Source of the DNA: Brachionus manjavacas
Lineage: Eukaryota; Rotifera; Eurotatoria; Ploima; Brachionidae
Assembly (NCBI GenBank): GCA_019054805.1
Contig: JAHQIY010000008.1
Span: 2,527,501-2,591,500 of the forward strand
Reading direction: 5' to 3'
DNA: 64,000 nt
Position 1 is the first letter of the stretch. The number at the start of each line of letters is the position of its first letter. Below are positions 35,313 through 64,000 of the stretch, in pieces. The notes under the pieces were generated by a model. The model made no database searches, had not been told where the DNA came from, and was given only the letters and a program-made list of their open reading frames with translations. The position numbers and the translations under genes were made by a program.

Positions 35313-35489
35313 TTAAAACCTTGGACAAATCTTAAATTTGGAAGGGTCTATTTTCAGTGACAAATCATAAGCATAAGCTAAAGCCAATAAACCACAGTCG
35401 TTGTCACCATCTTTTTCAGCAACTTAGGCTATTTGAACTGTAAGTACCGAACGTTCTGGGTTCTCATGTCCAAAAAGTCCAAGTTCACT
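35313..35489 (-). pseudogene. Ulp1-like cysteine protease fragment, mobile-element type
   Basis: Minus-strand translation reads SELGLFGHENPERSVLTVQIA, stop, then VAEKDGDNDCGLLALAYAYD and LSLKIDPSKF. The DxNDCGLxALAYA block is the catalytic-cysteine region of Ulp1/C48-type peptidases often carried by large transposons. One in-frame TAA and the short length show a dead fragment. Confidence 0.5.
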
Positions 35490-35659
35490 TAAAATTTTTG
35501 ATATAATTTTTAATTATTCATTTTAATTTAAGTCAATTTACAGGAAGTACTTTACTTGATAAATATTTTAAAGTCTTTTAAGTTTAATGAGAACTTTTCC
35601 CGAAAGATGAGAACTATTTTCGGTTTTTGTTATTATGAGATTAATTTAAATTAATTAGC

Positions 35660-38002: not shown

Positions 38003-38516
38003 TCTAATAATGAAAGTGAGCAGCGGTCAATAAGGTTTAGAAATTAAGTATCAATTACTTTATTTGTTTTTTTCAAGGTAATTTTTTTTACTGTTTTTCT
38101 TATGTAAAATTATCTATGTTTGAAAAATAAACATCTTCTATTAAAATCTATTATCTACTTCTTATTGATTTTATCTAATTTTTTATTAAAAAAAATATCT
38201 ACTAAAAATAACATTTATCTACTGACAAAAAAATATACCCTATATTTAATTATTTAATTGAAATAATCTCCATTGTAAAGAAGTTAATGTAAAGAAGAAA
38301 AATTAAAATTCTATGAATAAATAAATAAAAGAAAAAAATATAATGAAAAAAAATTTAAAAACAATCAAAAAAATAGTGGAGTAATTTATTAAATAGTCGA
38401 GACAAATAAAAGTCGAGTAATTTCAATATTTTCTTAATTCCATTTGGCGTAATTTATTTCGGGTATAGAAATTTTTCGTCATTTTTTTTATCTAGTCCAA
38501 GTTCGTTAGTAATTAA
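38003..38516. other. AT-rich intergenic DNA before the array edge
   Basis: No gene was recognised. Some of the right part (about 38460-38516) may belong to the oldest diverged monomer. Confidence 0.4.
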
Positions 38517-38800
38517 TGTAGTACATTGTTGGATTGAATAATTATAAAAAAGAAGAAATTTCATAAAATTCGTATTATTTCTCGTTGCTTTAATTCAAAA
38601 TAAAAAAAATAAAACTAGAATTTTTGAAACAAAATGATCTAAATAAATTAGAATTATTTTTTTTAAGGAAAAAGATAATCCAGATACGAGTTGGATTCGT
38701 GCCTGAAAGAAAAAGAAAAATTACTGAATGATTTTTCCACAAAGAGATCAAAAGAATTCTGAATAGAGGTAAAAATATCTTTACCAACCTGAATCAATAT
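38517..38800 (+). repeat. Diverged edge monomer 1 of the 523-bp satellite
   Basis: The order of blocks matches the satellite: a gtacattgttggattgaa block (monomer: gcacattgttgcattgaa), then an A tract with gaaattt, a Tattcaaaat block, a gatctaaat-type block and ttttttaagg. It then carries the exon-like segment 38668-38768. Identity is far lower than between array copies, as expected of an old array edge that escaped homogenisation. Confidence 0.7.
38668..38768 (+). pseudogene. Diverged, dead copy of the satellite exon
   Basis: After a TTTTAAG acceptor the relevant frame reads EKR, stop, SRYELDSC, then LKEKEKLLNDF. The array version is NRLSKYE, LDSCQ, MENEKLQNE. Over the six codons YELDSC the nucleotides differ at three positions (TAT/TAC, TTA/TTG, TGT/TGC), all synonymous. 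The segment extends to a possible donor at 38769, 101 nt in all, longer than the 66-nt array form. It contains stop codons, so it is not functional now. Confidence 0.6.
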
Positions 38801-38891
38801 ATCCTTTTCTGTAATTTTAATACAAAAGATTAATTTTAAATTTTTTGAAAAAATAATTATCTTTTAAATATTTTTCGACCACAATTAACTA

Positions 38892-39038
38892 ATGGCTGAC
38901 AAAATTCAAAGCCTTGAAAATTAAATTAAGATTTTCCTCGAGCAGGAGAGGTATTTCGAGATTGAAAATCTAATGCTCACCAAGGATCTAGAGTTATGTC
39001 GAAGCGCTAATGATCCTCAAAAGAAACAGCTTTTATAA
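38892..39038 (+). pseudogene. Small coiled-coil ORF with one nonsense codon
   Basis: From ATG at 38892: MADKIQSLEN, TAA at 38922-38924, then IKIFLEQERYFEIENLM and LTKDLELCRSANDPQKKQLL to a TAA at 39036-39038. Apart from that single codon (one base from GAA) all 48 codons are open. The G+C is higher than around it and the sequence is strongly coiled-coil-like. It lies just left of the array on the same strand and could be an old 5' or 3' exon of the gene that gave rise to the satellite. No family is recognised. Confidence 0.4.
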
Positions 39039-39098
39039 TTTCGAAAATTTAAAAACAAAAAAAAAATATAATATATTATTTTAATTTTTTTGAAACAG

Positions 39099-39176
39099 CA
39101 GAAAATGCAAATACGAGATAGATTCATGAAAGAAAAAAACAGATTTTTCAGAAGAAGATCAAGAGATTTTAGAATA
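39099..39176 (+). pseudogene. Second diverged copy of the satellite exon
   Basis: After an AAACAG acceptor the frame reads CKYEIDS, a TGA, then KKKTDFSEEDQEILE and TAA. KYEIDS matches the array motif KYE(L/V/I)DS, with synonymous differences in TAC and TCA. The tail aligns with the extension in the first diverged copy (ttttt-c-agaagatcaagag against ttttt-cc-acaaagagatcaaaag). It is dead because of the TGA. Confidence 0.5.
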
Positions 39177-39318
39177 AACTAAATGATTTATTTATTTCTC
39201 AATATTCATGTCAATTACATACTTAGGAGACGCGCTGTCCAACTCCGACCAAAACGTCGTTTTCAAATGTTTAAAAAAGAAAATTAAATTATACATCCTA
39301 TAATCCTAAATCATCTGA

Positions 39319-39364
39319 GGCAATTCTCGTAGACTGATGGCGGTCCAATTTTGTCACCTTTAAA
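39319..39364. repeat. Small duplicate of dynein exon 2/intron 1 boundary
   Basis: Positions 39341-39364 are identical over 24 nt to 30317-30340, which spans the start of DYNC1H1 exon 2 and its splice acceptor. Similarity continues with gaps leftward to 39319 (30295). A shorter echo, aattttgtcacctttt, occurs at 39386-39401. The copy sits between the diverged monomers and the homogeneous array. Confidence 0.6.
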
Positions 39365-39822
39365 CAAATCAAAATTAAAAACAAATTTTGTCACCTTTTG
39401 ATTGCTTTCTCTTCGGTAGAAATTAAATTTATAGCTAAATTGATATTTTTAATCAATAAAGGAATTTTTTTTTTAAAATGCTTTAAGGATTAAAAATAAT
39501 TTTGTAAAGGAAATTTTTGAATAAAGAATAATTTTCAAAAAAATAAATTATTTTAGAATCTAGAGAAAAAAGGCTGTGAATTCTCTCAATTTTAATTTTA
39601 TATCATTCTTGGTTCATCATTTTTTTCTAAATAATTTTTATAACAAAATAAACAAAAGATTTTTGGCCACCTGTTATGAATGAAGCACATTGTTGCATTG
39701 AAAATCATTAAAAAAAAAGAGAAATTTTATATTATTTGTCTATTTTCTTGATACTTTTATTCAAAATTTAAAAAAAGCTTTCTAAAATACTTTAAAACAA
39801 TATGATTCTAAATTTTTTTAAG

Positions 39823-39888
39823 GGAATAGATTAAGCAAGTATGAGTTAGATTCGTGTCAGATGGAAAATGAAAAATTACAGAATGAAG
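39823..39888 (+). CDS. Candidate 66-nt symmetric exon, array copy 1
   Basis: The segment lies between TTTTTTTAAG and the donor GTAAAT. With a phase-1 start and end it joins head to tail without breaking frame. It encodes 22 residues: a junction Gly, then NRLSKYELDSC, then QMENEKLQNE. The charged, leucine-bearing sequence is coiled-coil-like. All 47 copies keep the 66-nt length, the splice signals and an open frame. If all were spliced together the window alone would encode about 1030 residues. No start exon or terminal exon is identified (the right end is outside the window), and transcription is unproven. The protein family is not recognised. Confidence 0.45.
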
Positions 39889-42800
39889 GTAAATTAAATT
39901 AAAAAAATTAGAGAACAATTATATGTATTCTAAAATTTTAAAAACAAGTCATTTTTTATTATCAGTATCTTACCTTTTTTCTTATCATTTTGAGAACAAT
40001 CTATGTCGCAGGTAGGGTAAATTAATTGCCCAGAGAAAACTAAATTGAAAAGGCAGTTTAAAAGATAAATGAATTTTAGAATCTAGAGAAAAAAGGCTGT
40101 GAATTCTCTCAATTTTAATTTTATATCATTCTTGGTTCATCATTTTTTTCTAAATAATTTTTATAACAAAATAAACAAAAGATTTTTGGCCACCTGTTAT
40201 GAATGAAGCACATTGTTGCATTGAAAATCATTAAAAAAAAAGAGAAATTTTATATTATTTGTCTATTTTCTTGATACTTTTATTCAAAATTTAAAAAAGC
40301 TTTCTAAAATTCTTTAAAACAATATGATTCTAAATTTTTTTAAGGGAATAGATTAAGCAAGTATGAGTTAGATTCGTGTCAGATGGAAAATGAAAAATTA
40401 CAGAATGAAGGTAAATTAAATTAAAAAAATTAGAGAACAATTATATGTATTCTAAAATTTTAAAAACAAGTCATTTTTTATTATCAGTATCTTACCTTTT
40501 TTCTTATCATTTTGAGAACAATCTATGTCGCAGGTAGGGTAAATTAATTGCCCAGAGAAAACTAAATTGAAAAGGCAGTTTAAAAGATAAATGAATTTTA
40601 GAATCTAGAGAAAAAAGGCTGTGAATTCTCTCAATTTTAATTTTATATCATTCTTGGTTCATCATTTTTTTCTAAATAATTTTTATAACAAAATAAACAA
40701 AAGATTTTTGGCCACCTGTTATGAATGAAGCACATTGTTGCATTGAAAATCATTAAAAAAAAAGAGAAATTTTATATTATTTGTCTATTTTCTTGATACT
40801 TTTATTCAAAATTTAAAAAAAGCTTTCTAAAATTCTTTAAAACAATATGATTCTAAATTTTTTTAAGGGAATAGATTAAGCAAGTATGAGGTAGATTCGT
40901 GTCAGATGGAAAATGAAAAATTACAGAATGAAGGTAAATTAAATTAAAAAAATTAGAGAACAATTATATGTATTCTAAAATTTTAAAAACAAGTCATTTT
41001 TTATTATCAGTATCTTACCTTTTTTTCTTATCATTTTGAGAACAATCTATGTCGCAGGTAGGGTAAATTAATTGCCCAGAGAAAACTAAATTGAAAAGGC
41101 AGTTTAAAAGATAAATGAATTTTAGAATCTAGAGAAAAAAGGCTGTGAATTCTCTCAATTTTAATTTTATATCATTCTTGGTTCATCATTTTTTTCTAAA
41201 TAATTTTTATAACAAAATAAACAAAAGATTTTTGGCCACCTGTTATGAATGAAGCACATTGTTGCATTGAAAATCATTAAAAAAAAAGAGAAATTTTATA
41301 TTATTTGTCTATTTTCTTGATACTTTTATTCAAAATTTAAAAAAAGCTTTCTAAAATTCTTTAAAACAATATGATTCTAAATTTTTTTAAGGGAATAGAT
41401 TAAGCAAGTATGAGTTAGATTCGTGTCAGATGGAAAATGAAAAATTACAGAATGAAGGTAAATTAAATTAAAAAAATTAGAGAACAATTATATGTATTCT
41501 AAAATTAAAAACAAGTCATTTTTTATTATCAGTATCTTACCTTTTTTCTTATCATTTTGAGAACAATCTATGTCGCAGGTAGGGTAAATTAATTGCCCAG
41601 AGAAAACTAAATTGAAAAGGCAGTTTAAAAGATAAATGAATTTTAGAATCTAGAGAAAAAGGCTGTGAATTCTCTCAATTTTAATTTTATATCATTCTTG
41701 GTTCTTCATTTTTTTCTAAATAATTTTTATAACAAAATAAACAAAAGATTTTTGGCCACCTGTTATGAATGAAGCACATTGTTGCATTGAAAATCATTAA
41801 AAAAAAAAGAGAAATTTTATATTATTTGTCTATTTTCTTGATACTTTTATTCAAAATTTAAAAAAGCTTTCTAAAATTCTTTAAAACAATATGATTCTAA
41901 ATTTTTTTAAGGGAATAGATTAAGCAAGTATGAGTTAGATTCGTGTCAGATGGAAAATGAAAAATTACAGAATGAAGGTAAATTAAATTAAAAAAATTAG
42001 AGAACAATTATATGTATTCTAAAATTTTAAAAACAAGTCATTTTTTATTATCAGTATCTTACCTTTTTCTTATCATTTTGAGAACAATCTATGTCGCAGG
42101 TAGGGTAAATTAATTGCCCAGAGAAAACTAAATTGAAAAGGCAGTTTAAAAGATAAATGAATTTTAGAATCTAGAGAAAAAAGGCTGTGAATTCTCTCAA
42201 TTTTAATTTTATATCATTCTTGGTTCATCATTTTTTTCTAAATAATTTTTATAACAAAATAAACAAAAGATTTTTGGCCACCTGTTATGAATGAAGCACA
42301 TTGTTGCATTGAAAATCATTAAAAAAAAGAGAAATTTTATATTATTTGTCTATTTTCTTGATACTTTTATTCAAAATTTAAAAAAAGCTTTCTAAAATTC
42401 TTTAAAACAATATGATTCTAAATTTTTTTTAAGGGAATAGATTAAGCAAGTATGAGGTAGATTCGTGTCAGATGGAAAATGAAAAATTACAGAATGAAGG
42501 TAAATTAAATTAAAAAAATTAGAGAACAATTATATGTATTCTAAAATTTTAAAAACAAGTCATTTTTTATTATCAGTATCTTACCTTTTTTCTTATCATT
42601 TTGAGAACAATCTATGTCGCAGGTAGGGTAAATTAATTGCCCAGAGAAAACTAAATTGAAAAGGCAGTTTAAAAGATAAATGAATTTTAGAATCTAGAGA
42701 AAAAAGGCTGTGAATTCTCTCAATTTTAATTTTATATCATTCTTGGTTCATCATTTTTTTCTAAATAATTTTTATAACAAAATAAACAAAAGATTTTTGG

Positions 42801-45800
42801 CCACCTGTTATGAATGAAGCACATTGTTGCATTGAAAATCATTAAAAAAACGAGAAATTTTATATTATTTGTCTATTTTCTTGATACTTTTATTCAAAAT
42901 TTAAAAAAGCTTTCTAAAATTCTTTAAAACAATATGATTCTAAATTTTTTTTAAGGGAATAGATTAAGCAAGTATGAGGTAGATTCGTGTCAGATGGAAA
43001 ATGAAAAATTACAGAATGAAGGTAAATTAAATTAAAAAAATTAGAGAACAATTATATGTATTCTAAAATTTTAAAAACAAGTCATTTTTTATTATCAGTA
43101 TCTTACCTTTTTTCTTATCATTTTGAGAACAATCTATGTCGCAGGTAGGGTAAATTAATTGCCCAGAGAAAACTAAATTGAAAAGGCAGTTTAAAAGATA
43201 AATGAATTTTAGAATCTAGAGAAAAAAGGCTGTGAATTCTCTCAATTTTAATTTTATATCATTCTTGGTTCATCATTTTTTTCTAAATAATTTTTATAAC
43301 AAAATAAACAAAAGATTTTTGGCCACCTGTTATGAATGAAGCACATTGTTGCATTGAAAATCATTAAAAAAAAGAGAAATTTTATATTATTTGTCTATTT
43401 TCTTGATACTTTTATTCAAAATTTAAAAAAAGCTTTCTAAAATTCTTTAAAACAATATGATTCTAAATTTTTTTAAGGGAATAGATTAAGCAAGTATGAG
43501 TTAGATTCGTGTCAGATGGAAAATGAAAAATTACAGAATGAAGGTAAATTAAATTAAAAAAATTAGAGAACAATTATATGTATTCTAAAATTAAAAACAA
43601 GTCATTTTTTATTATCAGTATCTTACCTTTTTCTTATCATTTTGAGAACAATCTATGTCGCAGGTAGGGTAAATTAATTGCCCAGAGAAAACTAAATTGA
43701 AAAGGCAGTTTAAAAGATAAATGAATTTTAGAATCTAGAGAAAAAAGGCTGTGAATTCTCTCAATTTTAATTTTATATCATTCTTGGTTCATCATTTTTT
43801 TCTAAATAATTTTTATAACAAAATAAACAAAAGATTTTTGGCCACCTGTTATGAATGAAGCACATTGTTGCATTGAAAATCATTAAAAAAAAAAAGAGAA
43901 ATTTTATATTATTTGTCTATTTTCTTGATACTTTTATTCAAAATTTAAAAAAGCTTTCTAAAATTCTTTAAAACAATATGATTCTAAATTTTTTTAAGGG
44001 AATAGATTAAGCAAGTATGAGGTAGATTCGTGTCAGATGGAAAATGAAAAATTACAGAATGAAGGTAAATTAAATTAAAAAAATTAGAGAACAATTATAT
44101 GTATTCTAAAATTTTAAAAACAAGTCATTTTTTATTATCAGTATCTTACCTTTTTTCTTATCATTTTGAGAACAATCTATGTCGCAGGTAGGGTAAATTA
44201 ATTGCCCAGAGAAAACTAAATTGAAAAGGCAGTTTAAAAGATAAATGAATTTTAGAATCTAGAGAAAAAAGGCTGTGAATTCTCTCAATTTTAATTTTAT
44301 ATCATTCTTGGTTCATCATTTTTTTCTAAATAATTTTTATAACAAAATAAACAAAAGATTTTTGGCCACCTGTTATGAATGAAGCACATTGTTGCATTGA
44401 AAATCATTAAAAAAAAAGAGAAATTTTATATTATTTGTCTATTTTCTTGATACTTTTATTCAAAATTTTAAAAAAAGCTTTCTAAAATTCTTTAAAACAA
44501 TATGATTCTAAATTTTTTTTAAGGGAATAGATTAAGCAAGTATGAGTTAGATTCGTGTCAGATGGAAAATGAAAAATTACAGAATGAAGGTAAATTAAAT
44601 TAAAAAAATTAGAGAACAATTATATGTATTCTAAAATTTTAAAAACAAGTCATTTTTTATTATCAGTATCTTACCTTTTTTCTTATCATTTTGAGAACAA
44701 TCTATGTCGCAGGTAGGGTAAATTAATTGCCCAGAGAAAACTAAATTGAAAAGGCAGTTTAAAAGATAAATGAATTTTAGAATCTAGAGAAAAAGGCTGT
44801 GAATTCTCTCAATTTTAATTTTATATCATTCTTGGTTCATCATTTTTTCTAAATAATTTTTATAACAAAATAAACAAAAGATTTTTGGCCACCTGTTATG
44901 AATGAAGCACATTGTTGCATTGAAAATCATTAAAAAAAAAGAGAAATTTTATATTATTTGTCTATTTTCTTGATACTTTTATTCAAAATTTAAAAAAAGC
45001 TTTCTAAAATTCTTTAAAACAATATGATTCTAAATTTTTTTTAAGGGAATAGATTAAGCAAGTATGAGGTAGATTCGTGTCAGATGGAAAATGAAAAATT
45101 ACAGAATGAAGGTAAATTAAATTAAAAAAATTAGAGAACAATTATATGTATTCTAAAATTTTAAAAACAAGTCATTTTTTATTATCAGTATCTTACCTTT
45201 TTTCTTATCATTTTGAGAACAATCTATGTCGCAGGTAGGGTAAATTAATTGCCCAGAGAAAACTAAATTGAAAAGGCAGTTTAAAAGATAAATGAATTTT
45301 AGAATCTAGAGAAAAAAGGCTGTGAATTCTCTCAATTTTAATTTTATATCATTCTTGGTTCATCATTTTTTTCTAAATAATTTTTATAACAAAATAAACA
45401 AAAGATTTTTGGCCACCTGTTATGAATGAAGCACATTGTTGCATTGAAAATCATTAAAAAAAACGAGAAATTTTATATTATTTGTCTATTTTCTTGATAC
45501 TTTTATTCAAAATTTAAAAAAGCTTTCTAAAATTCTTTAAAACAATATGATTCTAAATTTTTTTAAGGGAATAGATTAAGCAAGTATGAGGTAGATTCGT
45601 GTCAGATGGAAAATGAAAAATTACAGAATGAAGGTAAATTAAATTAAAAAAATTAGAGAACAATTATATGTATTCTAAAATTTTAAAAACAAGTCATTTT
45701 TTATTATCAGTATCTTACCTTTTTTCTTATCATTTTGAGAACAATCTATGTCGCAGGTAGGGTAAATTAATTGCCCAGAGAAAACTAAATTGAAAAGGCA

Positions 45801-48800
45801 GTTTAAAAGATAAATGAATTTTAGAATCTAGAGAAAAAGGCTGTGAATTCTCTCAATTTTAATTTTATATAATTCTTGGTTCATCATTTTTTTCTAAATA
45901 ATTTTTATAACAAAATAAACAAAAAGATTTTTGGCCACCTGTTATGAATGAAGCACATTGTTGCATTGAAAATCATTAAAAAAAGAGAAATTTTATATTA
46001 TTTGTCTATTTTCTTGATACTTTTATTCAAAATTTAAAAAAAGCTTTCTAAAATTCTTTAAAACAATATGATTCTAAATTTTTTTTAAGGGAATAGATTA
46101 AGCAAGTATGAGGTAGATTCGTGTCAGATGGAAAATGAAAAATTACAGAATGAAGGTAAATTAAATTAAAAAAATTAGAGAACAATTATATGTATTCTAA
46201 AATTTTAAAAACAAGTCATTTTTTATTATCAGTATCTTACCTTTTTTCTTATCATTTTGAGAACAATCTATGTCGCAGGTAGGGTAAATTAATTGCCCAG
46301 AGAAAACTAAATTGAAAAGGCAGTTTAAAAGATAAATGAATTTTAGAATCTAGAGAAAAAGGCTGTGAATTCTCTCAATTTTAATTTTATATCATTCTTG
46401 GTTCATCATTTTTTTCTAAATAATTTTTATAACAAAATAAACAAAAGATTTTTGGCCACCTGTTATGAATGAAGCACATTGTTGCATTGAAAATCATTAA
46501 AAAAAAAGAGAAATTTTATATTATTTGTCTATTTTCTTGATACTTTTATTCAAAATTTTAAAAAAAGCTTTCTAAAATTCTTTAAAACAATATGATTCTA
46601 AATTTTTTTTTTAAGGGAATAGATTAAGCAAGTATGAGTTAGATTCGTGTCAGATGGAAAATGAAAAATTACAGAATGAAGGTAAATTAAATTAAAAAAA
46701 TTAGAGAACAATTATATGTATTCTAAAATTTTAAAAACAAGTCATTTTTTATTATCAGTATCTTACCTTTTTCTTATCATTTTGAGAACAATCTATGTCG
46801 CAGGTAGGGTAAATTAATTGCCCAGAGAAAACTAAATTGAAAAGGCAGTTTAAAAGATAAATGAATTTTAGAATCTAGAGAAAAAAGGCTGTGAATTCTC
46901 TCAATTTTAATTTTATATCATTCTTGGTTCATCATTTTTTCTAAATAATTTTTATAACAAAATAAACAAAAGTTTTTTGGCCACCTGTTATGAATGAAGC
47001 ACATTGTTGCATTGAAAATCATTAAAAAAAAAGAGAAATTTTATATTATTTGTCTATTTTCTTGATACTTTTATTCAAAATTTAAAAAAAGCTTTCTAAA
47101 ATTCTTTAAAACAATATGATTCTAAATTTTTTTAAGGGAATAGATTAAGCAAGTATGAGGTAGATTCGTGTCAGATGGAAAATGAAAAATTACAGAATGA
47201 AGGTAAATTAAATTAAAAAAATTAGAGAACAATTATATGTATTCTAAAATTTTAAAAACAAGTCATTTTTTATTATCAGTATCTTACCTTTTTTCTTATC
47301 ATTTTGAGAACAATCTATGTCGCAGGTAGGGTAAATTAATTGCCCAGAGAAAACTAAATTGAAAAGGCAGTTTAAAAGATAAATGAATTTTAGAATCTAG
47401 AGAAAAAAGGCTGTGAATTCTCTCAATTTTAATTTTATATCATTCTTGGTTCATCATTTTTCTAAATAATTTTTATAACAAAATAAACAAAAGATTTTTG
47501 GCCACCTGTTATGAATGAAGCACATTGTTGCATTGAAAATCATTAAAAAAAACGAGAAATTTTATATTATTTGTCTATTTTCTTGATACTTTTATTCAAA
47601 ATTTAAAAAAAGCTTTCTAAAATTCTTTAAAACAATATGATTCTAAATTTTTTTTAAGGGAATAGATTAAGCAAGTATGAGGTAGATTCGTGTCAGATGG
47701 AAAATGAAAAATTACAGAATGAAGGTAAATTAAATTAAAAAAATTAGAGAACAATTATATGTATTCTAAAATTTTAAAAACAAGTCATTTTTTATTATCA
47801 GTATCTTACCTTTTTTCTTATCATTTTGAGAACAATCTATGTCGCAGGTAGGGTAAATTAATTGCCCAGAGAAAACTAAATTGAAAAGGCAGTTTAAAAG
47901 ATAAATGAATTTTAGAATCTAGAGAAAAAAGGCTGTGAATTCTCTCAATTTTAATTTTATATCATTCTTGGTTCATCATTTTTTTCTAAATAATTTTTAT
48001 AACAAAATAAACAAAATATTTTTTGGCCACCTGTTATGAATGAAGCACATTGTTGCATTGAAAATCATTAAAAAAAAGAGAAATTTTATATTATTTGTCT
48101 ATTTTCTTGATACTTTTATTCAAAATTTAAAAAAAAGCTTTCTAAAATTCTTTAAAACAATATGATTCTAAATTTTTTTTAAGGGAATAGATTAAGCAAG
48201 TATGAGGTAGATTCGTGTCAGATGGAAAATGAAAAATTACAGAATGAAGGTAAATTAAATTAAAAAAATTAGAGAACAATTATATGTATTCTAAAATTTT
48301 AAAAACAAGTCATTTTTTATTATCAGTATCTTACCTTTTTTCTTATCATTTTGAGAACAATCTATGTCGCAGGTAGGGTAAATTAATTGCCCAGAGAAAA
48401 CTAAATTGAAAAGGCAGTTTAAAAGATAAATGAATTTTAGAATCTAGAGAAAAAAGGCTGTGAATTCTCTCAATTTTAATTTTATATCATTCTTGGTTCA
48501 TCATTTTTTTCTAAATAATTTTTATAACAAAATAAACAAAAGATTTTTGGCCACCTGTTATGAATGAAGCACATTGTTGCATTGAAAATCATTAAAAAAA
48601 AAGAGAAATTTTATATTATTTGTCTATTTTCTTGATACTTTTATTCAAAATTTAAAAAAAGCTTTCTAAAATTCTTTAAAACAATATGATTCTAAATTTT
48701 TTTTTAAGGGAATAGATTAAGCAAGTATGAGTTAGATTCGTGTCAGATGGAAAATGAAAAATTACAGAATGAAGGTAAATTAAATTAAAAAAATTAGAGA

Positions 48801-51800
48801 ACAATTATATGTATTCTAAAATTTTAAAAACAAGTCATTTTTTATTATCAGTATCTTACCTTTTTTCTTATCATTTTGAGAACAATCTATGTCGCAGGTA
48901 GGGTAAATTAATTGCCCAGAGAAAACTAAATTGAAAAGGCAGTTTAAAAGATAAATGAATTTTAGAATCTAGAGAAAAAAGGCTGTGAATTCTCTCAATT
49001 TTAATTTTATATCATTCTTGGTTCATCATTTTTTTCTAAATAATTTTTATAACAAAATAAACAAAAGATTTTTGGCCACCTGTTATGAATGAAGCACATT
49101 GTTGCATTGAAAATCATTAAAAAAAAAGAGAAATTTTATATTATTTGTCTATTTTCTTGATACTTTTATTCAAAATTTAAAAAAAGCTTTCTAAAATTCT
49201 TTAAAACAATATGATTCTAAATTTTTTTTAAGGGAATAGATTAAGCAAGTATGAGGTAGATTCGTGTCAGATGGAAAATGAAAAATTACAGAATGAAGGT
49301 AAATTAAATTAAAAAAATTAGAGAACAATTATATGTATTCTAAAATTTTAAAAACAAGTCATTTTTTATTATCAGTATCTTACCTTTTTTCTTATCATTT
49401 TGAGAACAATCTATGTCGCAGGTAGGGTAAATTAATTGCCCAGAGAAAACTAAATTGAAAAGGCAGTTTAAAAGATAAATGAATTTTAGAATCTATAGAA
49501 AAAGGCTGTGAATTCTCTCAATTTTAATTTTATATCATTCTTGGTTCATCATTTTTTTCTAAATAATTTTTATAACAAAATAAACAAAAGATTTTTGGCC
49601 ACCTGTTATGAATGAAGAACATTGTTGCATTGAAAATCATTAAAAAAAAGAGAAATTTTATATTATTTGTCTATTTTCTTGATACTTTTATTCAAAATTT
49701 AAAAAAAGCTTTCTAAAATTCTTTAAAACAATATGATTCTAAATTTTTTTAAGGGAATAGATTAAGCAAGTATGAGTTAGATTCGTGTCAGATGGAAAAT
49801 GAAAAATTACAGAATGAAGGTAAATTAAATTAAAAAAATTAGAGAACAATTATATGTATTCTAAAATTTTAAAAACAAGTCATTTTTTATTATCAGTATC
49901 TTACCTTTTTTCTTATCATTTTGAGAACAATCTATGTCGCAGGTAGGGTAAATTAATTGCCCAGAGAAAACTAAATTGAAAAGGCAGTTTAAAAGATAAA
50001 TGAATTTTAGAATCTAGAGAAAAAAGGCTGTGAATTCTCTCAATTTTAATTTTATATCATTCTTGGTTCATCATTTTTTTCTAAATAATTTTTATAACAA
50101 AATAAACAAAAGATTTTTGGCCACCTGTTATGAATGAAGCACATTGTTGCATTGAAAATCATTAAAAAAAAAGAGAAATTTTATATTATTTGTCTATTTT
50201 CTTGATACTTTTATTCAAAATTTAAAAAAAGCTTTCTAAAATTCTTTAAAACAATATGATTCTAAATTTTTTAAGGGAATAGATTAAGCAAGTATGAGTT
50301 AGATTCGTGTCAGATGGAAAATGAAAAATTACAGAATGAAGGTAAATTAAATTAAAAAAATTAGAGAACAATTATATGTATTCTAAAATTTTAAAAACAA
50401 GTCATTTTTTATTATCAGTATCTTACCTTTTTTCTTATCATTTTGAGAACAATCTATGTCGCAGGTAGGGTAAATTAATTGCCCAGAGAAAACTAAATTG
50501 AAAAGGCAGTTTAAAAGATAAATGAATTTTAGAATCTAGAGAAAAAAGGCTGTGAATTCTCTCAATTTTAATTTTATATCATTCTTGGTTCATCATTTTT
50601 TTCTAAATAATTTTTATAACAAAATAAACAAAAGATTTTTGGCCACCTGTTATGAATGAAGCACATTGTTGCATTGAAAATCATTAAAAAAAAAGAGAAA
50701 TTTTATATTATTTGTCTATTTTCTTGATACTTTTATTCAAAATTTAAAAAAAGATTTCTAAAATTCTTTAAAACAATATGATTCTAAATTTTTTTTAAGG
50801 GAATAGATTAAGCAAGTATGAGGTAGATTCGTGTCAGATGGAAAATGAAAAATTACAGAATGAAGGTAAATTAAATTAAAAAAATTAGAGAACAATTATA
50901 TGTATTCTAAAATTTTAAAAACAAGTCATTTTTTATTATCAGTATCTTACCTTTTTTCTTATCATTTTGAGAACAATCTATGTCGCAGGTAGGGTAAATT
51001 AATTGCCCAGAGAAAACTAAATTGAAAAGGCAGTTTAAAAGATAAATGAATTTTAGAATCTAGAGAAAAAGGCTGTGAATTCTCTCAATTTTAATTTTAT
51101 ATCATTCTTGGTTCATCATTTTTTTCTAAATAATTTTTATAACAAAATAAACAAAAGATTTTTGGCCACCTATTATGAATGAAGCACATTGTTGCATTGA
51201 AAATCATTAAAAAAAAAAGAGAAATTTTATATTATTTGTCTATTTTCTTGATACTTTTATTCAAAATTTAAAAAAAGCTTTCTAAAATTCTTTAAAACAA
51301 TATGATTCTAAATTTTTTTTAAGGGAATAGATTAAGCAAGTATGAGGTAGATTCGTGTCAGATGGAAAATGAAAAATTACAGAATGAAGGTAAATTAAAT
51401 TAAAAAAATTAGAGAACAATTATATGTATTCTAAAATTTTAAAAACAAGTCATTTTTTATTATCAGTATCTTACCTTTTTTCTTATCATTTTGAGAACAA
51501 TCTATGTCGCAGGTAGGGTAAATTAATTGCCCAGAGAAAACTAAATTGAAAAGGCAGTTTAAAAGATAAATGAATTTTAGAATCTAGAGAAAAAAGGCTG
51601 TGAATTCTCTCAATTTTAATTTTATATCATTCTTGGTTCATCATTTTTTTCTAAATAATTTTTATAACAAAATAAACAAAAGATTTTTGGCCACCTGTTA
51701 TGAATGAAGCACATTGTTGCATTGAAAATCATTAAAAAAAAAGAGAAATTTTATATTATTTGTCTATTTTCTTGATACTTTTATTCAAAATTTAAAAAAA

Positions 51801-54800
51801 GCTTTCTAAAATTCTTTAAAACAATATGATTCTAAATTTTTTTTAAGGGAATAGATTAAGCAAGTATGAGGTAGATTCGTGTCAGATGGAAAATGAAAAA
51901 TTACAGAATGAAGGTAAATATAAATTAAAAAAATTAGAGAACAATTATATGTATTCTAAAATTTTAAAAACAAGTCATTTTTTATTATCAGTATCTTACC
52001 TTTTTTCTTATCATTTTGAGAACAATCTATGTCGCAGGTAGGGTAAATTAATTGCCCAGAGAAAACTAAATTGAAAAGGCAGTTTAAAAGATAAATGAAT
52101 TTTAGAATCTAGAGAAAAAAGGCTGTGAATTCTCTCAATTTTAATTTTATATCATTCTTGGTTCATCATTTTTTCTAAATAATTTTTATAACAAAATAAA
52201 CAAAAGATTTTTGGCCACCTGTTATGAATGAAGCACATTGTTGCATTGAAAATCATTAAAAAAAAAGAGAAATTTTATATTATTTGTCTATTTTCTTGAT
52301 ACTTTTATTCAAAATTTAAAAAAAGCTTTCTAAAATTCTTTAAAACAATATGATTCTAAATTTTTTTAAGGGAATAGATTAAGCAAGTATGAGGTAGATT
52401 CGTGTCAGATGGAAAATGAAAAATTACAGAATGAAGGTAAATTAAATTAAAAAATTAGAGAACAATTATATGTATTCTAAAATTTTAAAAACAAGTCATT
52501 TTTTATTATCAGTATCTTACCTTTTTTCTTATCATTTTGAGAACAATCTATGTCGCAGGTAGGGTAAATTAATTGCCCAGAGAAAACTAAATTGAAAAGG
52601 CAGTTTAAAAGATAAATGAATTTTAGAATCTAGAGAAAAAAGGCTGTGAATTCTCTCAATTTTAATTTTATATCATTCTTGGTTCATCATTTTTTTCTAA
52701 ATAATTTTTATAACAAAATAAACAAAAGATTTTTGGCCACCTGTTATGAATGAAGCACATTGTTGCATTGAAAATCATTAAAAAAAACGAGAAATTTTAT
52801 ATTATTTGTCTATTTTCTTGATACTTTTATTCAAAATTTAAAAAAAGCTTTCTAAAATTCTTTAAAACAATATGATTCTAAATTTTTTTTAAGGGAATAG
52901 ATTAAGCAAGTATGAGGTAGATTCGTGTCAGATGGAAAATGAAAAATTACAGAATGAAGGTAAATTAAATTAAAAAAATTAGAGAACAATTATATGTATT
53001 CTAAAATTTTAAAAACAAGTCATTTTTTATTATCAGTATCTTACCTTTTTTCTTATCATTTTGAGAACAATCTATGTCGCAGGTAGGGTAAATTAATTGC
53101 CCAGAGAAAACTAAATTGAAAAGGCAGTTTAAAAGATAAATGAATTTTAGAATCTAGAGAAAAAAGGTTGTGAATTCTCTCAATTTTAATTTTATATCAT
53201 TCTTGGTTCATCATTTTTTTCTAAATAATTTTTATAACAAAATAAACAAAAGATTTTTGGCCACCTGTTATGAATGAAGCACATTGTTGCATTGAAAATC
53301 ATTAAAAAAAAGAGAAATTTTATATTATTTGTCTATTTTCTTGATACTTTTTATTCATAATTTAAAAAAGCTTTCTAAAATTATTTAAAACAATATGATT
53401 CTAAATTTTTTTAAGGGAATAGATTAAGCAAGTATGAGGTAGATTCGTGTCAGATGGAAAATGAAAAATTACAGAATGAAGGTAAATTAAATTAAAAAAA
53501 TTAGAGAACAATTATATGTATTCTAAAATTTTAAAAACAAGTCATTTTTTATTATCAGTATCTTACCTTTTTTCTTATCATTTTGAGAACAATCTATGTC
53601 GCAGGGAGGGTAAATTAATTGCCCAGAGAAAACTAAATTGAAAAGGCAGTTTAAAAGATAAATGAATTTTAGAATCTAGAGAAAAAAGGCTGTGAATTCT
53701 CTCAATTTTAATTTTATATCATTCTTGGTTCTTCATTTTTTTCTAAATAATTTTTATAACAAAATAAACAAAAGATTTTTGGCCACCTGTTATGAATGAA
53801 GCACATTGTTGCATTGAAAATCATTAAAAAAAAAGAGAAATTTTATATTATTTGTCTATTTTCTTGATACTTTTATTCAAAATTTAAAAAAGCTTTCTAA
53901 AATTCTTTAAAACAATATGATTCTAAATTTTTTTAAGGGAATAGATTAAGCAAGTATGAGGTAGATTCGTGTCAGATGGAAAATGAAAAATTACAGAATG
54001 AAGGTAAATTAAATTAAAAAAATTAGAGAACAATTATATGTATTCTAAAATTTTAAAAACAAGTCATTTTTTATTATCAGTATCTTACCTTTTTTCTTAT
54101 CATTTTGAGAACAATCTATGTCGCAGGTAGGGTAAATTAATTGCCCAGAGAAAACTAAATTGAAAAGGCAGTTTAAAAGATAAATGAATTTTAGAATCTA
54201 GAGAAAAAAGGTTGTGAATTCTCTCAATTTTAATTTTATATCATTCTTGGTTCATCATTTTTTTCTAAATAATTTTTATAACAAAATAAACAAAAGATTT
54301 TTGGCCACCTGTTATGAATGAAGCACATTGTTGCATTGAAAATCATTAAAAAAAAAGAGAAATTTTATATTATTTGTCTATTTTCTTGATACTTTTATTC
54401 ATAATTTAAAAAGCTTTCTAAAATTCTTTAAAACAATATGATTCTAAATTTTTTTAAGGGAATAGATTAAGCAAGTATGAGGTAGATTCGTGTCAGATGG
54501 AAAATGAAAAATTACAGAATGAAGGTAAATTAAATTAAAAAAATTAGAGAACAATTATATGTATTCTAAAATTTTAAAAACAAGTCATTTTTTATTATCA
54601 GTATCTTACCTTTTTCTTATCATTTTGAGAACAATCTATGTCGCAGGGAGGGTAAATTAATTGCCCAGAGAAAACTAAATTGAAAAGGCAGTTTAAAAGA
54701 TAAATGAATTTTAGAATCTAGAGAAAAAAGGCTGTGAATTCTCTCAATTTTAATTTTATATCATTCTTGGTTCATCATTTTTTCTAAATAATTTTTATAA

Positions 54801-57800
54801 CAAAATAAATAAAAGATTTTTGGCCACCTGTTATGAATGAAGCACATTGTTGCATTGAAAATCATTAAAAAAAAAGAGAAATTTTATATTATTTGTCTAT
54901 TTTCTTGATACTTTTATTCATAATTTAAAAAAAGCTTTCTAAAATTCTTTAAAACAATATGATTCTAAATTTTTTTTAAGGGAATAGATTAAGCAAGTAT
55001 GAGGTAGATTCGTGTCAGATGGAAAATGAAAAATTACAGAATGAAGGTAAATTAAATTAAAAAAATTAGAGAACAATTATATGTATTCTAAAATTTTAAA
55101 AACAAGTCATTTTTTATTATCAGTATCTTACCTTTTTTCTTATCATTTTGAGAACAATCTATGTCGCGGGTAGGGTAAATTAATTGTCCAGAGAAAGCTA
55201 AATTGAAAAGGCAGTTTAAAAGATAAATGAATTTTAGAATCTAGAGAAAAAAGGCTGTGAATTCTCTCAATTTTAATTTTATATCATTCTTGGTTCATCA
55301 TTTTTTTCTAAATAATTTTTAAAACAAAATAAACAAAAGATTTTTGGCCACCTGTTATGAATGAAGCACATTGTTGCATTGAAAATCATTAAAAAAAAAG
55401 AGAAATTTTATATTATTTGTCTATTTTCTTGATACTTTTATTCAAAATTTAAAAAAAGCTTTCTAAAATTCTTTAAAAAAATATGATTCTAAATTTTTTT
55501 TAAGGGAATAGATTAAGCAAGTATGAGTTAGATTCGTGTCAGATGGAAAATGAAAAATTACAGAATGAAGGTAAATTAAATTAAAAAAATTAGAGAACAA
55601 TTATATGTATTCTAAAATTTTAAAAACAAGTCATTTTTTATTATCAGTATCTTACCTTTTTTCTTATCATTTTGAGAACAATCTATGTCGCAGGTAGGGT
55701 AAATTAATTGCCCAGAGAAAACTAAATTGAAAAGGCAGTTTAAAAGATGAATGAATTTTAGAATCTAGAGAAAAAAGGCTGTGAATTCTCTCAATTTTAA
55801 TTTTATATCATTCTTGGTTCTTCATTTTTTCTAAATAATTTTTATAACAAAATAAACAAAAGATTTTTGGCCACCTGTTATGAATGAAGCACATTGTTGC
55901 ATTGAAAATCATTAAAAAAAAGAGAAATTTTATATTATTTGTCTATTTTCTTGATACTTTTATTCAAAATTTAAAAAAAGCTTTCTAAAATTCTTTAAAA
56001 CAATATGATTCTAAATTTTTTTTAAGGGAATAGATTAAGCAAGTATGAGGTAGATTCGTGTCAGATGGAAAATGAAAAATTACAGAATGAAGGTAAATTA
56101 AATTAAAAAAATTAGAGAACAATTATATGTATTCTAAAATTTTAAAAACAAGTCATTTTTTATTATCAGTATCTTACCTTTTTTCTTATCATTTTGAGAA
56201 CAATCTATGTCGCAGGTAGGGTAAATTAATTGCCCAGAGAAAACTAAATTGAAAAGGCAGTTTAAAAGATAAATGAATTTTAGAATCTAGAGAAAGAAGG
56301 CTGTGAATTCTCTCAATTTTAATTTTATATCATTCCTGGTTCATCATTTTTTTCTAAATAATTTTTATAACAAAATAAACAAAAGATTTTTGGCCGCCTG
56401 TTATGAATGAAGCACATTGTTGCATTGAAAATCATTAAAAAAAAAGAGAAATTTTATATTATTTGTCAATTTTCTTGATACTTTTATTCAAAATTTAAAA
56501 AAAGCTTTCTAAAATTCTTTGAAACAATATGATTCTAAATTTTTTTTAAGGGAATAGATTAAGCAAGTATGAGATAGATTCGTGTCAGATGGAAAATGAA
56601 AAATTACAGAATGAAGGTAAATTAAATTAAAAAAATTAGAGAACAATTATATGTATTCTAAAATTTTAAAAACAAGTCATTTTTTATTATCAGTATCTTA
56701 CCTTTTTTCTTATCATTTTGAGAACAATCTATGTCGCAGGTAGGGTAAATTAATTGCCCAGAGAAAACTAAATTGAAAAGGCAGTTTAAAAGATAAATGA
56801 ATTTTAGAATCTAGAGAAAAAAGGCTGTGAATTCTCTCAATTTTAATTTTATATCATTCTTGGTTCATCATTTTTTTCTAAATAATTTTTATAACAAAAT
56901 AAACAAAAGATTTTTGGCCGCCTGTTATGAATGAAGCACATTGTTGCATTGAAAATCATTAAAAAAAGAGAAATTTTATATTATTTGTCTATTTTCTTGA
57001 TACTTTTATTCAAAATTTAAAAAAAGCTTTCTAAAATTCTTTAAAACAATATGATTCTAAATTTTTTTTAAGGGAAAAGATTAAGCAAGTATGAGATAGA
57101 TTCGTGTCAGATGGAAAATGAAAAATTACAGAATGAAGGTAAATTAAATTAAAAAAATTAGAGAACAATTATATGTATTCTAAAATTTTAAAAAAAAGTC
57201 ATTTTTTATTATCAGTATCTTACCTTTTTTCTTATCATTTTGAGAACAATCTATGTCGCAGGTAGGGTAAATTAATTGCCCAGAGAAAACTAAATTGAAA
57301 AGGCAGTTTAAAAGATAAATGAATTTTAGAATCTAGAGAAAAAAGGCTGTGAATTCTCTCAATTTTAATTTTATATCATTCTTGGTTCATCATTTTTTCT
57401 AAATAATTTTTATAACAAAATAAACAAAAGATTTTTGGCCGCCTGTTATGAATGAAGCACATTGTTGCATTGAAAATCATTAAAAAAAAGAGAAATTTTA
57501 TATTATTTGTCAATTTTCTTGATACTTTTATTCAAAATTTAAAAAAAGCTTTCTAAAATTCTTTAAAACAATATGATTCTAAATTTTTTTTAAGGGAATA
57601 GATTAAGCAAGTATGAGATAGATTCGTGTCAGATGGAAAATGAAAAATTACAGAATGAAGGTAAATTAAATTAAAAAAATTAGAGAACAATTATATGTAT
57701 TCTAAAATTTTAAAAACAAGTCATTTTTTATTATCAGTATCTTACCTTTTTTCTTATCATTTTGAGAACAATCTATGTCGCAGGTAGGGTAAATTAATTG

Positions 57801-58118
57801 CCCAGAGAAAACTAAATTGAAAAGGCAGTTTAAAAGATAAATGAATTTTAGAATCTAGAGAAAAAAGGCTGTGAATTCTCTCAATTTTAATTTTATATCA
57901 TTCTTGGTTCATCATTTTTTTCTAAATAATTTTTATAACAAAATAAACAAAAGATTTTTGGCCGCCTGTTATGAATGAAGCACATTGTTGCATTGAAAAT
58001 CATTAAAAAAAAAGAGAAATTTTATATTATTTGTCTATTTTCTTGATACTTTTATTCAAAATTTAAAAAAAGCTTTCTAAAATTCTTTAAAACAATATGA
58101 TTCTAAATTTTTTTTAAG

Positions 58119-58184
58119 GGATTAGATTAAGCAAGTATGAGTTAGATTCGTGTCAGATGGAAAATGAAAAATTACAGAATGAAG
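58119..58184 (+). CDS. Candidate exon, array copy 36 (Asn to Ile variant)
   Basis: Same 66-nt segment with the first full codon ATT instead of AAT. The next copy (exon near 58643) has the same change, so the two adjacent copies share a recent origin. Frame and splice signals are intact. Confidence 0.4.
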
Positions 58185-61100
58185 GTAAATTAAATTAAAA
58201 AAATTAGAGAACAATTATATGTATTCTAAAATTTTAAAAACAAGTCATTTTTTATTATCAGTATCTTACCTTTTTTCTTATCATTTTGAGAACAATCTAT
58301 GTCGCAGGTAGGGTAAATTAATTGCCCAGAGAAAACTAAATTGAAAAGGCAGTTTAAAAGATAAATGAATTTTAGAATCTAGAGAAAAAGGCTGTGAATT
58401 CTCTCAATTTTAATTTTATATCATTCTTGGTTCATCATTTTTTTCTAAATAATTTTTATAACAAAATAAACAAAAGATTTTTGGCCACCTGTTATGAATG
58501 AAGCACATTGTTGCATTGAAAATCATTAAAAAAAAAGAGAAATTTTATATTATTTGTCTATTTTCTTGATACTTTTATTCAAAATTTAAAAAAAGCTTTC
58601 TAAAATTCTTTAAAACAATATGATTCTAAATTTTTTTAAGGGATTAGATTAAGCAAGTATGAGTTAGATTCGTGTCAGATGGAAAATGAAAAATTACAGA
58701 ATGAAGGTAAATTAAATTAAAAAAATTAGAGAACAATTATATGTATTCTAAAATTTTAAAAACAAGTCATTTTTTATTATCAGTATCTTACCTTTTTTCT
58801 TATCATTTTGAGAACAATCTATGTCGCAGGTAGGGTAAATTAATTGCCCAGAGAAAACTAAATTGAAAAGGCAGTTTAAAAGATAAATGAATTTTAGAAT
58901 CTAGAGAAAAAAGGCTGTGAATTCTCTCAATTTTAATTTTATATCATTCTTGGTTCATCATTTTTTTCTAAATAATTTTTATAACAAAATAAACAAAAGA
59001 TTTTTGGCCGCCTGTTATGAATGAAGCACATTGTTGCATTGAAAATCATTAAAAAAAAAGAGAAATTTTATATTATTTGTCTATTTTCTTGATACTTTTA
59101 TTCAAAATTTAAAAAAAGCTTTCTAAAATTCTTTAAAACAATATGATTCTAAATTTTTTTTAAGGGAATAGATTAAGCAAGTATGAGATAGATTCGTGTC
59201 AGATGGAAAATGAAAAATTACAGAATGAAGGTAAATTAAATTAAAAAAATTAGAGAACAATTATATGTATTCTAAAATTTTAAAAACAAGTCATTTTTTA
59301 TTATCAGTATCTTACCTTTTTTCTTATCATTTTGAGAACAATCTATGTCGCAGGTAGGGTAAATTAATTGCCCAGAGAAAACTAAATTGAAAAGGCAGTT
59401 TAAAAGATAAATGAATTTTAGAATCTAGAGAAAAAAGGCTGTGAATTCTCTCAATTTTAATTTTATATCATTCTTGGTTCATCATTTTTTTCTAAATAAT
59501 TTTTATAACAAAATAAACAAAAGATTTTTGGCCGCCTGTTATGAATGAAGCACATTGTTGCATTGAAAATCATTAAAAAAAAAAGAGAAATTTTATATTA
59601 TTTGTCAATTTTCTTGATACTTTTATTCAAAATTTAAAAAAGCTTTCTAAAATTCTTTAAAACAATATGATTCTAAATTTTTTTAAGGGAATAGATTAAG
59701 CAAGTATGAGATAGATTCGTGTCAGATGGAAAATGAAAAATTACAGAATGAAGGTAAATTAAATTAAAAAATTAGAGAACAATTATATGTATTCTAAAAT
59801 TTTAAAAACAAGTCATTTTTTATTATCAGTATCTTACCTTTTTCTTATCATTTTGAGAACAATCTATGTCGCAGGTAGGGTAAATTAATTGCCCAGAGAA
59901 AACTAAATTGAAAAGGCAGTTTAAAAGATAAATGAATTTTAGAATCTAGAGAAAAAAGGCTGTGAATTCTCTCAATTTTAATTTTATATCATTCTTGGTT
60001 CATCATTTTTTTCTAAATAATTTTTATAACAAAATAAACAAAAGATTTTTGGCCACCTGTTATGAATGAAGCACATTGTTGCATTGAAAATCATTAAAAA
60101 AAAGAGAAATTTTATATTATTTGTCTATTTTCTTGATACTTTTATTCAAAATTTAAAAAAGCTTTCTAAAATTCTTTAAAACAATATGATTCTAAATTTT
60201 TTTTAAGGGAATAGATCAAGCAAGTATGAGGTAGATTCGTGTCAGATGGAAAATGAAAAATTACAGAATGAAGGTAAATTAAATTAAAAAAATTAGAGAA
60301 CAATTATATGTATTCTAAAATTTTAAAAACAAGTCATTTTTTATTATCAGTATCTTACCTTTTTTCTTATCATTTTGAGAACAATCTATGTCGCAGGTAG
60401 GGTAAATTAATTGCCCAGAGAAAACTAAATTGAAAAGGCAGTTTAAAAGATAAATGAATTTTAGAATCTAGAGAAAAAAGGCTGTGAATTCTCTCAATTT
60501 TAATTTTATATCATTCTTGGTTCTTCATTTTTTTCTAAATAATTTTTATAACAAAATAAACAAAAGATTTTTGGCCACCTGTTATGAATGAAGCACATTG
60601 TTGCATTGAAAATCATTAAAAAAAAAGAGAAATTTTATATTATTTGTCTATTTTCTTGATACTTTTATTCAAAATTTAAAAAGCTTTCTAAAATTCTTTA
60701 AAACAATATGATTCTAAATTTTTTTAAGGGAATAGATTAAGCAAGTATGAGTTAGATTCGTGTCAGATGGAAAATGAAAAATTACAGAATGAAGGTAAAT
60801 TAAATTAAAAAAATTAGAGAACAATTATATGTATTCTAAAATTTTAAAAACAAGTCATTTTTTATTATCAGTATCTTACCTTTTTCTTATCATTTTGAGA
60901 ACAATCTATGTCGCAGGTAGGGTAAATTAATTGCCCAGAGAAAACTAAATTGAAAAGGCAGTTTAAAAGATAAATGAATTTTAGAATCTAGAGAAAAAAG
61001 GCTGTGAATTCTCTCAATTTTAATTTTATATCATTCTTGGTTCTTCATTTTTTTCTAAATAATTTTTATAACAAAATAAACAAAAGATTTTTGGCCACCT

Positions 61101-63866
61101 GTTATGAATGAAGCACATTGTTGCATTGAAAATCATTAAAAAAAAAGAGAAATTTTATATTATTTGTCTATTTTCTTGATACTTTTATTCAAAATTTAAA
61201 AAAAGCTTTCTAAAATTCTTTAAAACAATATGATTCTAAATTTTTTTTAAGGGAATAGATTAAGCAAGTATGAGTTAGATTCGTGTCAGATGGAAAATGA
61301 AAAATTACAGAATGAAGGTAAATTAAATTAAAAAAATTAGAGAACAATTATATGTATTCTAAAATTTTAAAAACAAGTCATTTTTTATTATCAGTATCTT
61401 ACCTTTTTCTTATCATTTTGAGAACAATCTATGTCGCAGGTAGGGTAAATTAATTGCCCAGAGAAAACTAAATTGAAAAGGCAGTTTAAAAGATAAATGA
61501 ATTTTAGAATCTAGAGAAAAAAGGCTGTGAATTCTCTCAATTTTAATTTTATATCATTCTTGGTTCTTCATTTTTTCTAAATAATTTTTATAACAAAATA
61601 AACAAAAGATTTTTGGCCACCTGTTATGAATGAAGCACATTGTTGCATTGAAAATCATTAAAAAAAAAAGAGAAATTTTATATTATTTGTCTATTTTCTT
61701 GATACTTTTATTCAAAATTTAAAAAAAGCTTTCTAAAATTCTTTAAAACAATATGATTCTAAATTTTTTTTAAGGGAATAGATTAAGCAAGTATGAGTTA
61801 GATTCGTGTCAGATGGAAAATGAAAAATTACAGAATGAAGGTAAATTAAATTAAAAAAATTAGAGAACAATTATATGTATTCTAAAATTTTAAAAACAAG
61901 TCATTTTTATTATCAGTATCTTACCTTTTTCTTATCATTTTGAGAACAATCTATGTCGCAGGTAGGGTAAATTAATTGCCCAGAGAAAACTAAATTGAAA
62001 AGGCAGTTTAAAAGATAAATGAATTTTAGAATCTAGAGAAAAAAGGCTGTGAATTCTCTCAATTTTAATTTTATATCATTCCTGGTTCATCATTTTTTCT
62101 AAATAATTTTTATAACAAAATAAACAAAAGATTTTTGGCCGCCTGTTATGAATGAAGCACATTGTTGCATTGAAAATCATTAAAAAAAAAGAGAAATTTT
62201 ATATTATTTGTCTATTTTCTTGATACTTTTATTCAAAATTTAAAAAAAGCTTTCTAAAATTCTTTAAAACAATATGATTCTAAATTTTTTTAAGGGAATA
62301 GATTAAGCAAGTATGAGTTAGATTCGTGTCAGATGGAAAATGAAAAATTACAGAATGAAGGTAAATTAAATTAAAAAAATTAGAGAACAATTATATGTAT
62401 TCTAAAATTTTAAAAACAAGTCATTTTTTATTATCAGTATCTTACCTTTTTTCTTATCATTTTGAGAACAATCTATGTCGCAGGTAGGGTAAATTAATTG
62501 CCCAGAGAAAACTAAATTGAAAAGGCAGTTTAAAAGATAAATGAATTTTAGAATCTAGAGAAAAAAGGCTGTGAATTCTCTCAATTTTAATTTTATATCA
62601 TTCCTGGTTCATCATTTTTTTCTAAATAATTTTTATAACAAAATAAACAAAAGATTTTTGGCCACCTGTTATGAATGAAGCACATTGTTGCATTGAAAAT
62701 CATTAAAAAAAAAGAGAAATTTTATATTATTTGTCTATTTTCTTGATACTTTTATTCAAAATTTAAAAAAGCTTTCTAAAATACTTTAAAACAATATGAT
62801 TCTAAATTTTTTTAAGGGAATAGATTAAGCAAGTATGAGTTAGATTCGTGTCAGATGGAAAATGAAAAATTACAGAATGAAGGTAAATTAAATTAAAAAA
62901 TTAGAGAACAATTATATGTATTCTAAAATTTTAAAAAACAAGTCATTTTTTATTATCAGTATCTTACCTTTTTTCTTATCATTTTGAGAACAATCTATGT
63001 CGCAGGTAGGGTAAATTAATTGCCCAGAGAAAACTAAATTGAAAAGGCAGTTTAAAAGATAAATGAATTTTTAGAATCTAGAGAAAAAAGGCTGTGAATT
63101 CTCTCAATTTTAATTTTATATCATTCCTGGTTCATCATTTTTTTCTAAATAATTTTTATAACAAAATAAACAAAAGATTTTTGGCCGCCTGTTATGAATG
63201 AAGCACATTGTTGCATTGAAAATCATTAAAAAAAAAAAGAGAAATTTTATATTATTTGTCAATTTTCTTGATACTTTTATTCAAAATTTAAAAAAAGCTT
63301 TCTAAAATTCTTTAAAACAATATGATTCTAAATTTTTTTTAAGGGAATAGATTAAGCAAGTATGAGATAGATTCGTGTCAGATGGAAAATGAAAAATTAC
63401 AGAATGAAGGTAAATTAAATTAAAAAAATTAGAGAACAATTATATGTATTCTAAAATTTTAAAAACAAGTCATTTTTTATTATCAGTATCTTACCTTTTT
63501 TCTTATCATTTTGAGAACAATCTATGTCGCAGGTAGGGTAAATTAATTGCCCAGAGAAAACTAAATTGAAAAGGCAGTTTAAAAGATAAATGAATTTTAG
63601 AATCTAGAGAAAAAAGGCTGTGAATTCTCTCAATTTTAATTTTATATCATTCCTGGTTCATCATTTTTTTCTAAATAATTTTTATAACAAAATAAACAAA
63701 AGATTTTTGGCCAACTGTTTTGAATGAAGCACATTGTTGCATTGAAAATCATTAAAAAAAAAGAGAAATTTTATATTATTTGTCTATTTTCTTGATACTT
63801 TTATTCAAAATTTAAAAAAAGCTTTCTAAAATTCTTTAAAACAATATGATTCTAAATTTTTTTAAG

Positions 63867-63932
63867 GGAATAGATTAAGCAAGTATGAGTTAGATTCGTG
63901 TCAGATGGAAAATGAAAAATTACAGAATGAAG
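63867..63932 (+). CDS. Candidate exon, array copy 47 (last in window)
   Basis: Intact 66-nt segment with acceptor AAG ending at 63866 and donor GT at 63933-63934. It carries the Leu form (GAG TTA GAT). It shows that the candidate exon and its signals are preserved at both ends of the visible array. Confidence 0.4.
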
Positions 63933-64000
63933 GTAAATTAAATTAAAAAAAATTAGAGAACAATTATATGTATTCTAAAATTTTAAAAACAAGTCATTTT

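Follow-up and report, generated by a model that had tools for sequence, protein, structure and literature searches.

The tandem array that occupies the right part of the window is probably, at a likelihood of roughly two in three, a young and still splice-competent satellite that arose when a decapitated gene had one of its exon-intron units amplified, and carries no present selection on the encoded peptide. The window is the whole stretch of DNA analyzed (64,000 nt, G000:C8:2,527,501-2,591,500). Its coordinates are used here and continued past 64,000, and the genome that was searched comprises 114 Mb.

Structure of the array

The array shows the following features in the window.

39549..64000, + strand: left 47 copies of the array, monomer of ~523 bp
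39823..39888, + strand: first exon of the array (66 nt, phase 1-1), with the acceptor AAG at 39820-39822 and the donor GTAAAT at 39889-39894
40001..40200, + strand: stretch of the monomer intron with 69-84% identity to an old dispersed repeat

The first array exon is followed by 46 more in the window at steps of ~523 bp. The initial annotation had described an acceptor, an open segment of 66 nt and a donor in each monomer, and T(6-10)-AAG, 66 nt and GTAAAT are indeed present in all 47 window copies. The array is cut by the window edge and extends from 39.55 to ~75.3 kb (G000:C8 to ~2,602,800) with a total of 61 intact exon copies. Length and frame of the segment, which had been reported as preserved in 47 copies, are also preserved in the right part of the array, and each of the 61 units harbors a 66-nt exon in symmetric phase 1-1 with both splice sites. 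Of 60 exon-to-exon gaps, 59 correspond to one monomer (520-527 nt) and one measures ~4.4 kb. As the latter holds a retrotransposon, no monomer lacks the exon. The inserted element (~3.8 kb, ~66,655-70,490) lies in one array intron on the strand of the array, contains an open frame of 784 residues and by inspection appears to be a non-LTR retrotransposon. The mean pairwise substitution divergence among the units is 0.7% (59 of the 61 units aligned). The locus thus consists of many homogenised head-to-tail copies (n=61), as is typical of a satellite or macrosatellite.

The array lies at 49% of the length of its 5.25-Mb contig, close to the center, a position that would suit a chromosomal role, for example as a centromere-like repeat. 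However, among the matches listed in a genome search with the monomer, those covering most of it occur only at this locus and the others are short pieces of the intron repeat (the counts are lower bounds), which makes such a role very improbable. The dispersed intron repeat of ~200 bp has at least 31 matches outside the locus, some of them in inverted pairs, and is probably a MITE.

The 66-nt exon and its peptide

A single + frame is open in all 61 exons and translates into GNRLSKYELDSCQMENEKLQNE with few variants. Residue 9 is leucine in the commonest form (28 exons), whereas valine is the sole change in 22 exons and isoleucine in seven; rarer changes occur in four. The commonest exon variant is therefore a conservative Leu/Val/Ile exchange. 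Every unit exon contains an in-frame ATG (MENEKLQNE), so transcripts that start within the array would be translatable despite the loss of the 5' part. Peptides predicted from the array gene include KYELDSCQMENEK, KYEVDSCQMENEK and KYEIDSCQMENEK. A Pfam search with two peptides returned 18 weak rows, none above its curated cut-off, a PDB search of peptides gave no match at E up to 1, and none of 17 pattern matches in viral contigs was a relative.

Of 500 dinucleotide-shuffled monomers, ~22% also had, under a loose definition, an exon-like open segment between acceptor-like and GTAA sites. Because shuffled monomers often give a similar segment, the exon form alone is weak evidence. The codon usage of the 66-nt exon resembles that of neighboring genes only weakly (17% of 20,000 reached its score), and its reading frame scores best of all six. 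The GTAAAT donor is shared with a ribosomal-protein gene at ~92.6 kb, which we take to be RPL36-like. Since diverged partial copies, most of them adjoining a terminal exon, surround the array, the 66-nt segment is a true exon, which belongs to a small gene of coiled-coil type. Pieces of this gene were recognised only at this locus in genome searches, which give lower bounds; the best matches elsewhere had E=2.7 and E=0.48.

The terminal exon of the array itself lies past the window edge. Extension of the sequence to the right, as proposed in the initial annotation, yielded two further features.

75,391-75,456, + strand: 62nd unit exon, with an in-frame TAA
75,509-75,663, + strand: terminal exon, open, 51 residues, AEKIADKIQSLENQIKIFLEQERYFEIENQMLTKDIELCRSSYDPQKSQLL

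Both exons are separated by an intron of 52 nt, and an AATAAA is located at ~75,720, ~57 nt past the stop of the terminal exon. The codon usage of the terminal exon resembles that of neighboring genes, and an equal score was reached by 2 of 500 open non-coding segments. The 62nd exon, if included, would end a protein before the terminal exon due to its in-frame TAA.

These features bear on an alternative in which the array functions as a gene and encodes, by splicing in series, a giant repeat protein of ~1,340 residues (61 x 22). Translation would begin within the array, or else in a 5' exon that was not recognised, and would end at the stop of the 62nd exon or, with that exon skipped, in the terminal exon. 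The 61 open and symmetric exons, the donors of a type also used in the ribosomal-protein gene, the ATG in each unit, the prevalence of Leu/Val/Ile among the variants, and an open terminal exon with coding-like score and nearby AATAAA are all consistent with this alternative, whereas the TAA in the 62nd exon argues against it.

Gene copies and duplicated segments around the array

Partial unit-exon copies, most with a terminal exon, are located at 38.7-39.0, 78.9-79.3 and 82.7-82.9 kb on the + strand and at 81.4-82.1 kb on the - strand. The features on the left side of the array are as follows.

33745..33973, - strand: most diverged, degenerate copy of the membrane segment plus coiled-coil exon
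34372..35808, + strand: segment B; a copy with 99.5% identity lies across the array at 77206-78643
38407..39552, + strand: segment C, holding the dead 3' gene fragment; second copy at 78650-79992 in two matching pieces, 86-92% identity
38667..38732, + strand: degenerate unit-exon copy just 5' of the array, interrupted by an in-frame TAA
38892..39035, + strand: degenerate terminal-exon copy, likewise interrupted by an in-frame TAA; by eye, an AG acceptor is missing where expected

Judged from these degenerate copies, the segment just 5' of the array is a dead 3' fragment of the array's own gene. Segments B and C differ much in the identity of their copies (99.5% versus 86-92%); gene conversion may account for this, or else separate duplications.

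The opposite-strand copy at 81.4-82.5 kb comprises, in this order, a hydrophobic segment, FGIVTVFNIIGFVVLFCALIGG, a unit-exon copy, an array-like intron, a unit exon, a short intron like the one of 52 nt and a truncated terminal exon. By eye, a frame-consistent candidate intron of 55 nt with a poor GTGCTT donor was placed between the membrane segment and the first unit exon; if it is disregarded, the two are in different frames. Array positions 39538-39900 match 81862-81484 at 92%, which places a homologous intron in the opposite-strand copy. Two unit exons around a homologous intron form an arrangement that would be able to seed unequal exchange.

Pieces of the membrane segment could be recognised on the minus strand only (33.8-34.0, 75.96-76.27 and 82.1-82.5 kb). 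The piece at 75.96 kb faces the terminal exon of the array from a distance of ~300 bp on the opposite strand. Inspection by eye revealed neither a first exon 5' of the membrane segment nor a + strand 5' exon left of the array; a distant or unrecognisable 5' exon may exist. Dispersed matches at positions 648-758 of one search query were considered as paralogous membrane exons and rejected, as their letters show another, apparently non-coding repeat. An Rfam search at gathering scores over window positions 30000-42000 led nowhere.

The translated frames of the window look like animal genes, presumably with a dynein heavy chain among them, and the genes flanking the locus are in our assignment a dynein heavy chain and a TCP11L1-like gene. 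Pieces of these flanking genes are copied between them (32097-32210 and 80594-80706; 81053-81260 and 83656-83868, the second inverted).

The lack of a recognised 5' part on the strand of the array and the dead 3' fragment directly upstream stand against a gene for a giant protein. The same separation from the 5' part would, along with the preserved splice sites and the premature end set by the 62nd exon, fit an array that is transcribed and partly spliced without yielding a stable protein, as a long non-coding RNA or nonsense-decay RNA from a decapitated gene. This possibility is considered quite improbable.

Other coiled-coil repeat genes

Further genes of coiled-coil character were observed in the same genome. 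At window positions 7972-8857 (+), a model made by eye comprises three tandem 42-nt phase-1 symmetric exons with introns of ~58 nt, which encode 14-residue heptad units such as IEEKFIKMDETLTR; the last exon contains a hydrophobic stretch and ends with TAG. The only other genome match of this gene-like model had E=0.08. At C8:2,864,980-2,865,648 (+), one open frame combines a membrane segment with 14-residue coiled-coil repeats, EKLSEMKIEKEELN, and relatives of its membrane segment are found, as matches only, at C8:2,854,627, C8:2,838,161 and C11:2,799,789. Both the gene-like model and the C8 frame with its relatives share a hydrophobic segment and short heptad-type repeats with the array gene, but their repeats are of 14 residues in few copies, whereas those of the array are of 22 residues. 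Kinship with the array gene was rejected as unproven (best match 30% identity, E=0.48).

Searches for an arthropod cuticle domain found none, a result of little weight because the search controls were prokaryotes. Neither the nematode SL1 nor the bdelloid spliced leader, with patterns that we presume to be correct, was found within 2 mismatches. A match to the COX1 family in a 667-residue open frame at C21:120555-121901 (-) possibly marks a bacterial contaminant contig in the assembly.

Selection on the array exons

Variation in exon and intron was compared in 59 of the 61 units, with the last 12 columns of the alignment omitted. The exon is variable at 4 of its 66 sites and the intron at 47 of 448 (Fisher P=0.38); if change events are compared instead, the numbers are 5 versus 47 (P=0.66). 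Among 449 stretches of 66 sites, 107 contain as few or fewer variable sites. All five exon changes are nonsynonymous, including N to I, N to K and L to S, and with so few events the absence of synonymous changes has a chance probability of 0.50. From the intron rates 7.0 changes would be expected in the exon, including 0.9 synonymous changes and 0.95 stops, versus 5 changes and 0 stops seen; the chance of no stop among 5 changes is 0.48. With less than one stop expected, the absence of indels and stops was rejected as evidence for selection, and the caution in the initial annotation that an indel-free exon is by itself uninformative was well placed. The array exons show no sign of constraint, in numbers so small that a strong one could not have been detected.

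The lack of a significant constraint signal speaks against a gene for a giant protein, whereas in units 1-31 only 1 exon site is variable versus 27 other sites, which is in its favor. The same holds for the low substitution ratios between gene copies. The terminal exon of the array and its copy at 82.8 kb differ by 3 synonymous and 3 nonsynonymous changes (ratio 0.21, 6 changes only), and the array unit exon and an opposite-strand unit exon by 2 synonymous and 2 nonsynonymous changes (ratio 0.17, 4 changes only). Ratios versus degenerate copies are 0.76 and 0.81. Despite their tiny counts, the low ratios between non-degenerate copies hint at a formerly constrained gene.

Origin of the array

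The initial annotation had left two explanations side by side, a giant repeat protein encoded by amplified exons and a satellite born from a gene. The latter is the better supported: the 3' terminal exon, the surrounding partial copies and the confinement to the locus, among the matches listed, of those over most of the monomer argue for it. Besides the evidence discussed above, the presence of further genes with coiled-coil repeats in this genome is compatible with a giant protein. Nevertheless, the missing constraint, the stop in the 62nd exon, the dead upstream fragment and the lack of a recognised + strand 5' part render a working gene unlikely. Slightly less probable still is its fuller version, in which the array is expressed and spliced into a coiled-coil protein of well over 1,000 residues that changes its length by unequal exchange, is translated from an ATG found in every unit and tolerates mainly Leu/Val/Ile variation.

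For a satellite born from a gene, the source would be a small orphan gene with a membrane segment, one or two coiled-coil exons and a terminal exon of 51 residues. A local inverted duplication may have separated the array segment from its 5' part, as a piece of the membrane segment lies in opposite orientation ~300 bp past the terminal exon. The unit would then have been multiplied by unequal crossing-over or by slippage during replication, and the intact frame and splice sites in all copies would be due to a recent and homogenised amplification. If transcribed, the array could still be spliced in series and would therefore represent raw material for a repeat protein, not a demonstrated one.

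The array thus offers a snapshot of the boundary between satellite and gene, in which 61 monomers each carry a complete exon, with the seed arrangement and the terminal exon readable alongside. Transcription of the array would make it an example of the speed at which a single exon can give rise to a giant repeat protein. A silent array would instead be a warning that exon-bearing tandem arrays in perfect frame need not be genes.

Comparison with known systems

A narrow literature search was directed at tandem exons and at satellites that carry exons or were born from genes. None of the titles and abstract openings listed describes such an array, and a precedent may well be in print. The KIV-2 repeat of LPA is described as a tandem unit of 5.6 kb with 1 to >40 copies that contains two exons (160 and 182 bp) and gives rise to isoforms of many lengths (PMC6314250). 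The array resembles it in a large tandem unit holding exon and intron, and a complete symmetric exon with splice sites is present in 61 of 61 units. KIV-2 is part of an expressed gene with known isoforms, whereas the array has a 523-bp unit with one exon and no recognised 5' part of the gene. With respect to constant exons, the array has a 3' terminal exon, but membrane pieces were recognised only on the opposite strand and a dead fragment lies 5'; an unrecognised 5' exon may exist. If spliced, the array would work like the LPA KIV-2 repeat; membership in this kind is not claimed, because no constant 5' part was recognised.

The coding region of schistosome micro-exon genes (MEGs) consists mostly of very small symmetrical exons that permit splicing variants; alternative splicing and the detection of MEG proteins in secretions are also described (PMC4350168). 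The array shares only symmetric short exons with them. To our knowledge, a MEG is not built from near-identical copies of a single exon unit.

Satellites or macrosatellites that originated from pieces of genes form a further kind. The array resembles them in being head-to-tail, homogenised and locally confined, and its included exon may likewise be free of selection. It differs from them in that it keeps an intact exon, both splice sites and an adjoining terminal exon, which is the anatomy of a spliced gene.
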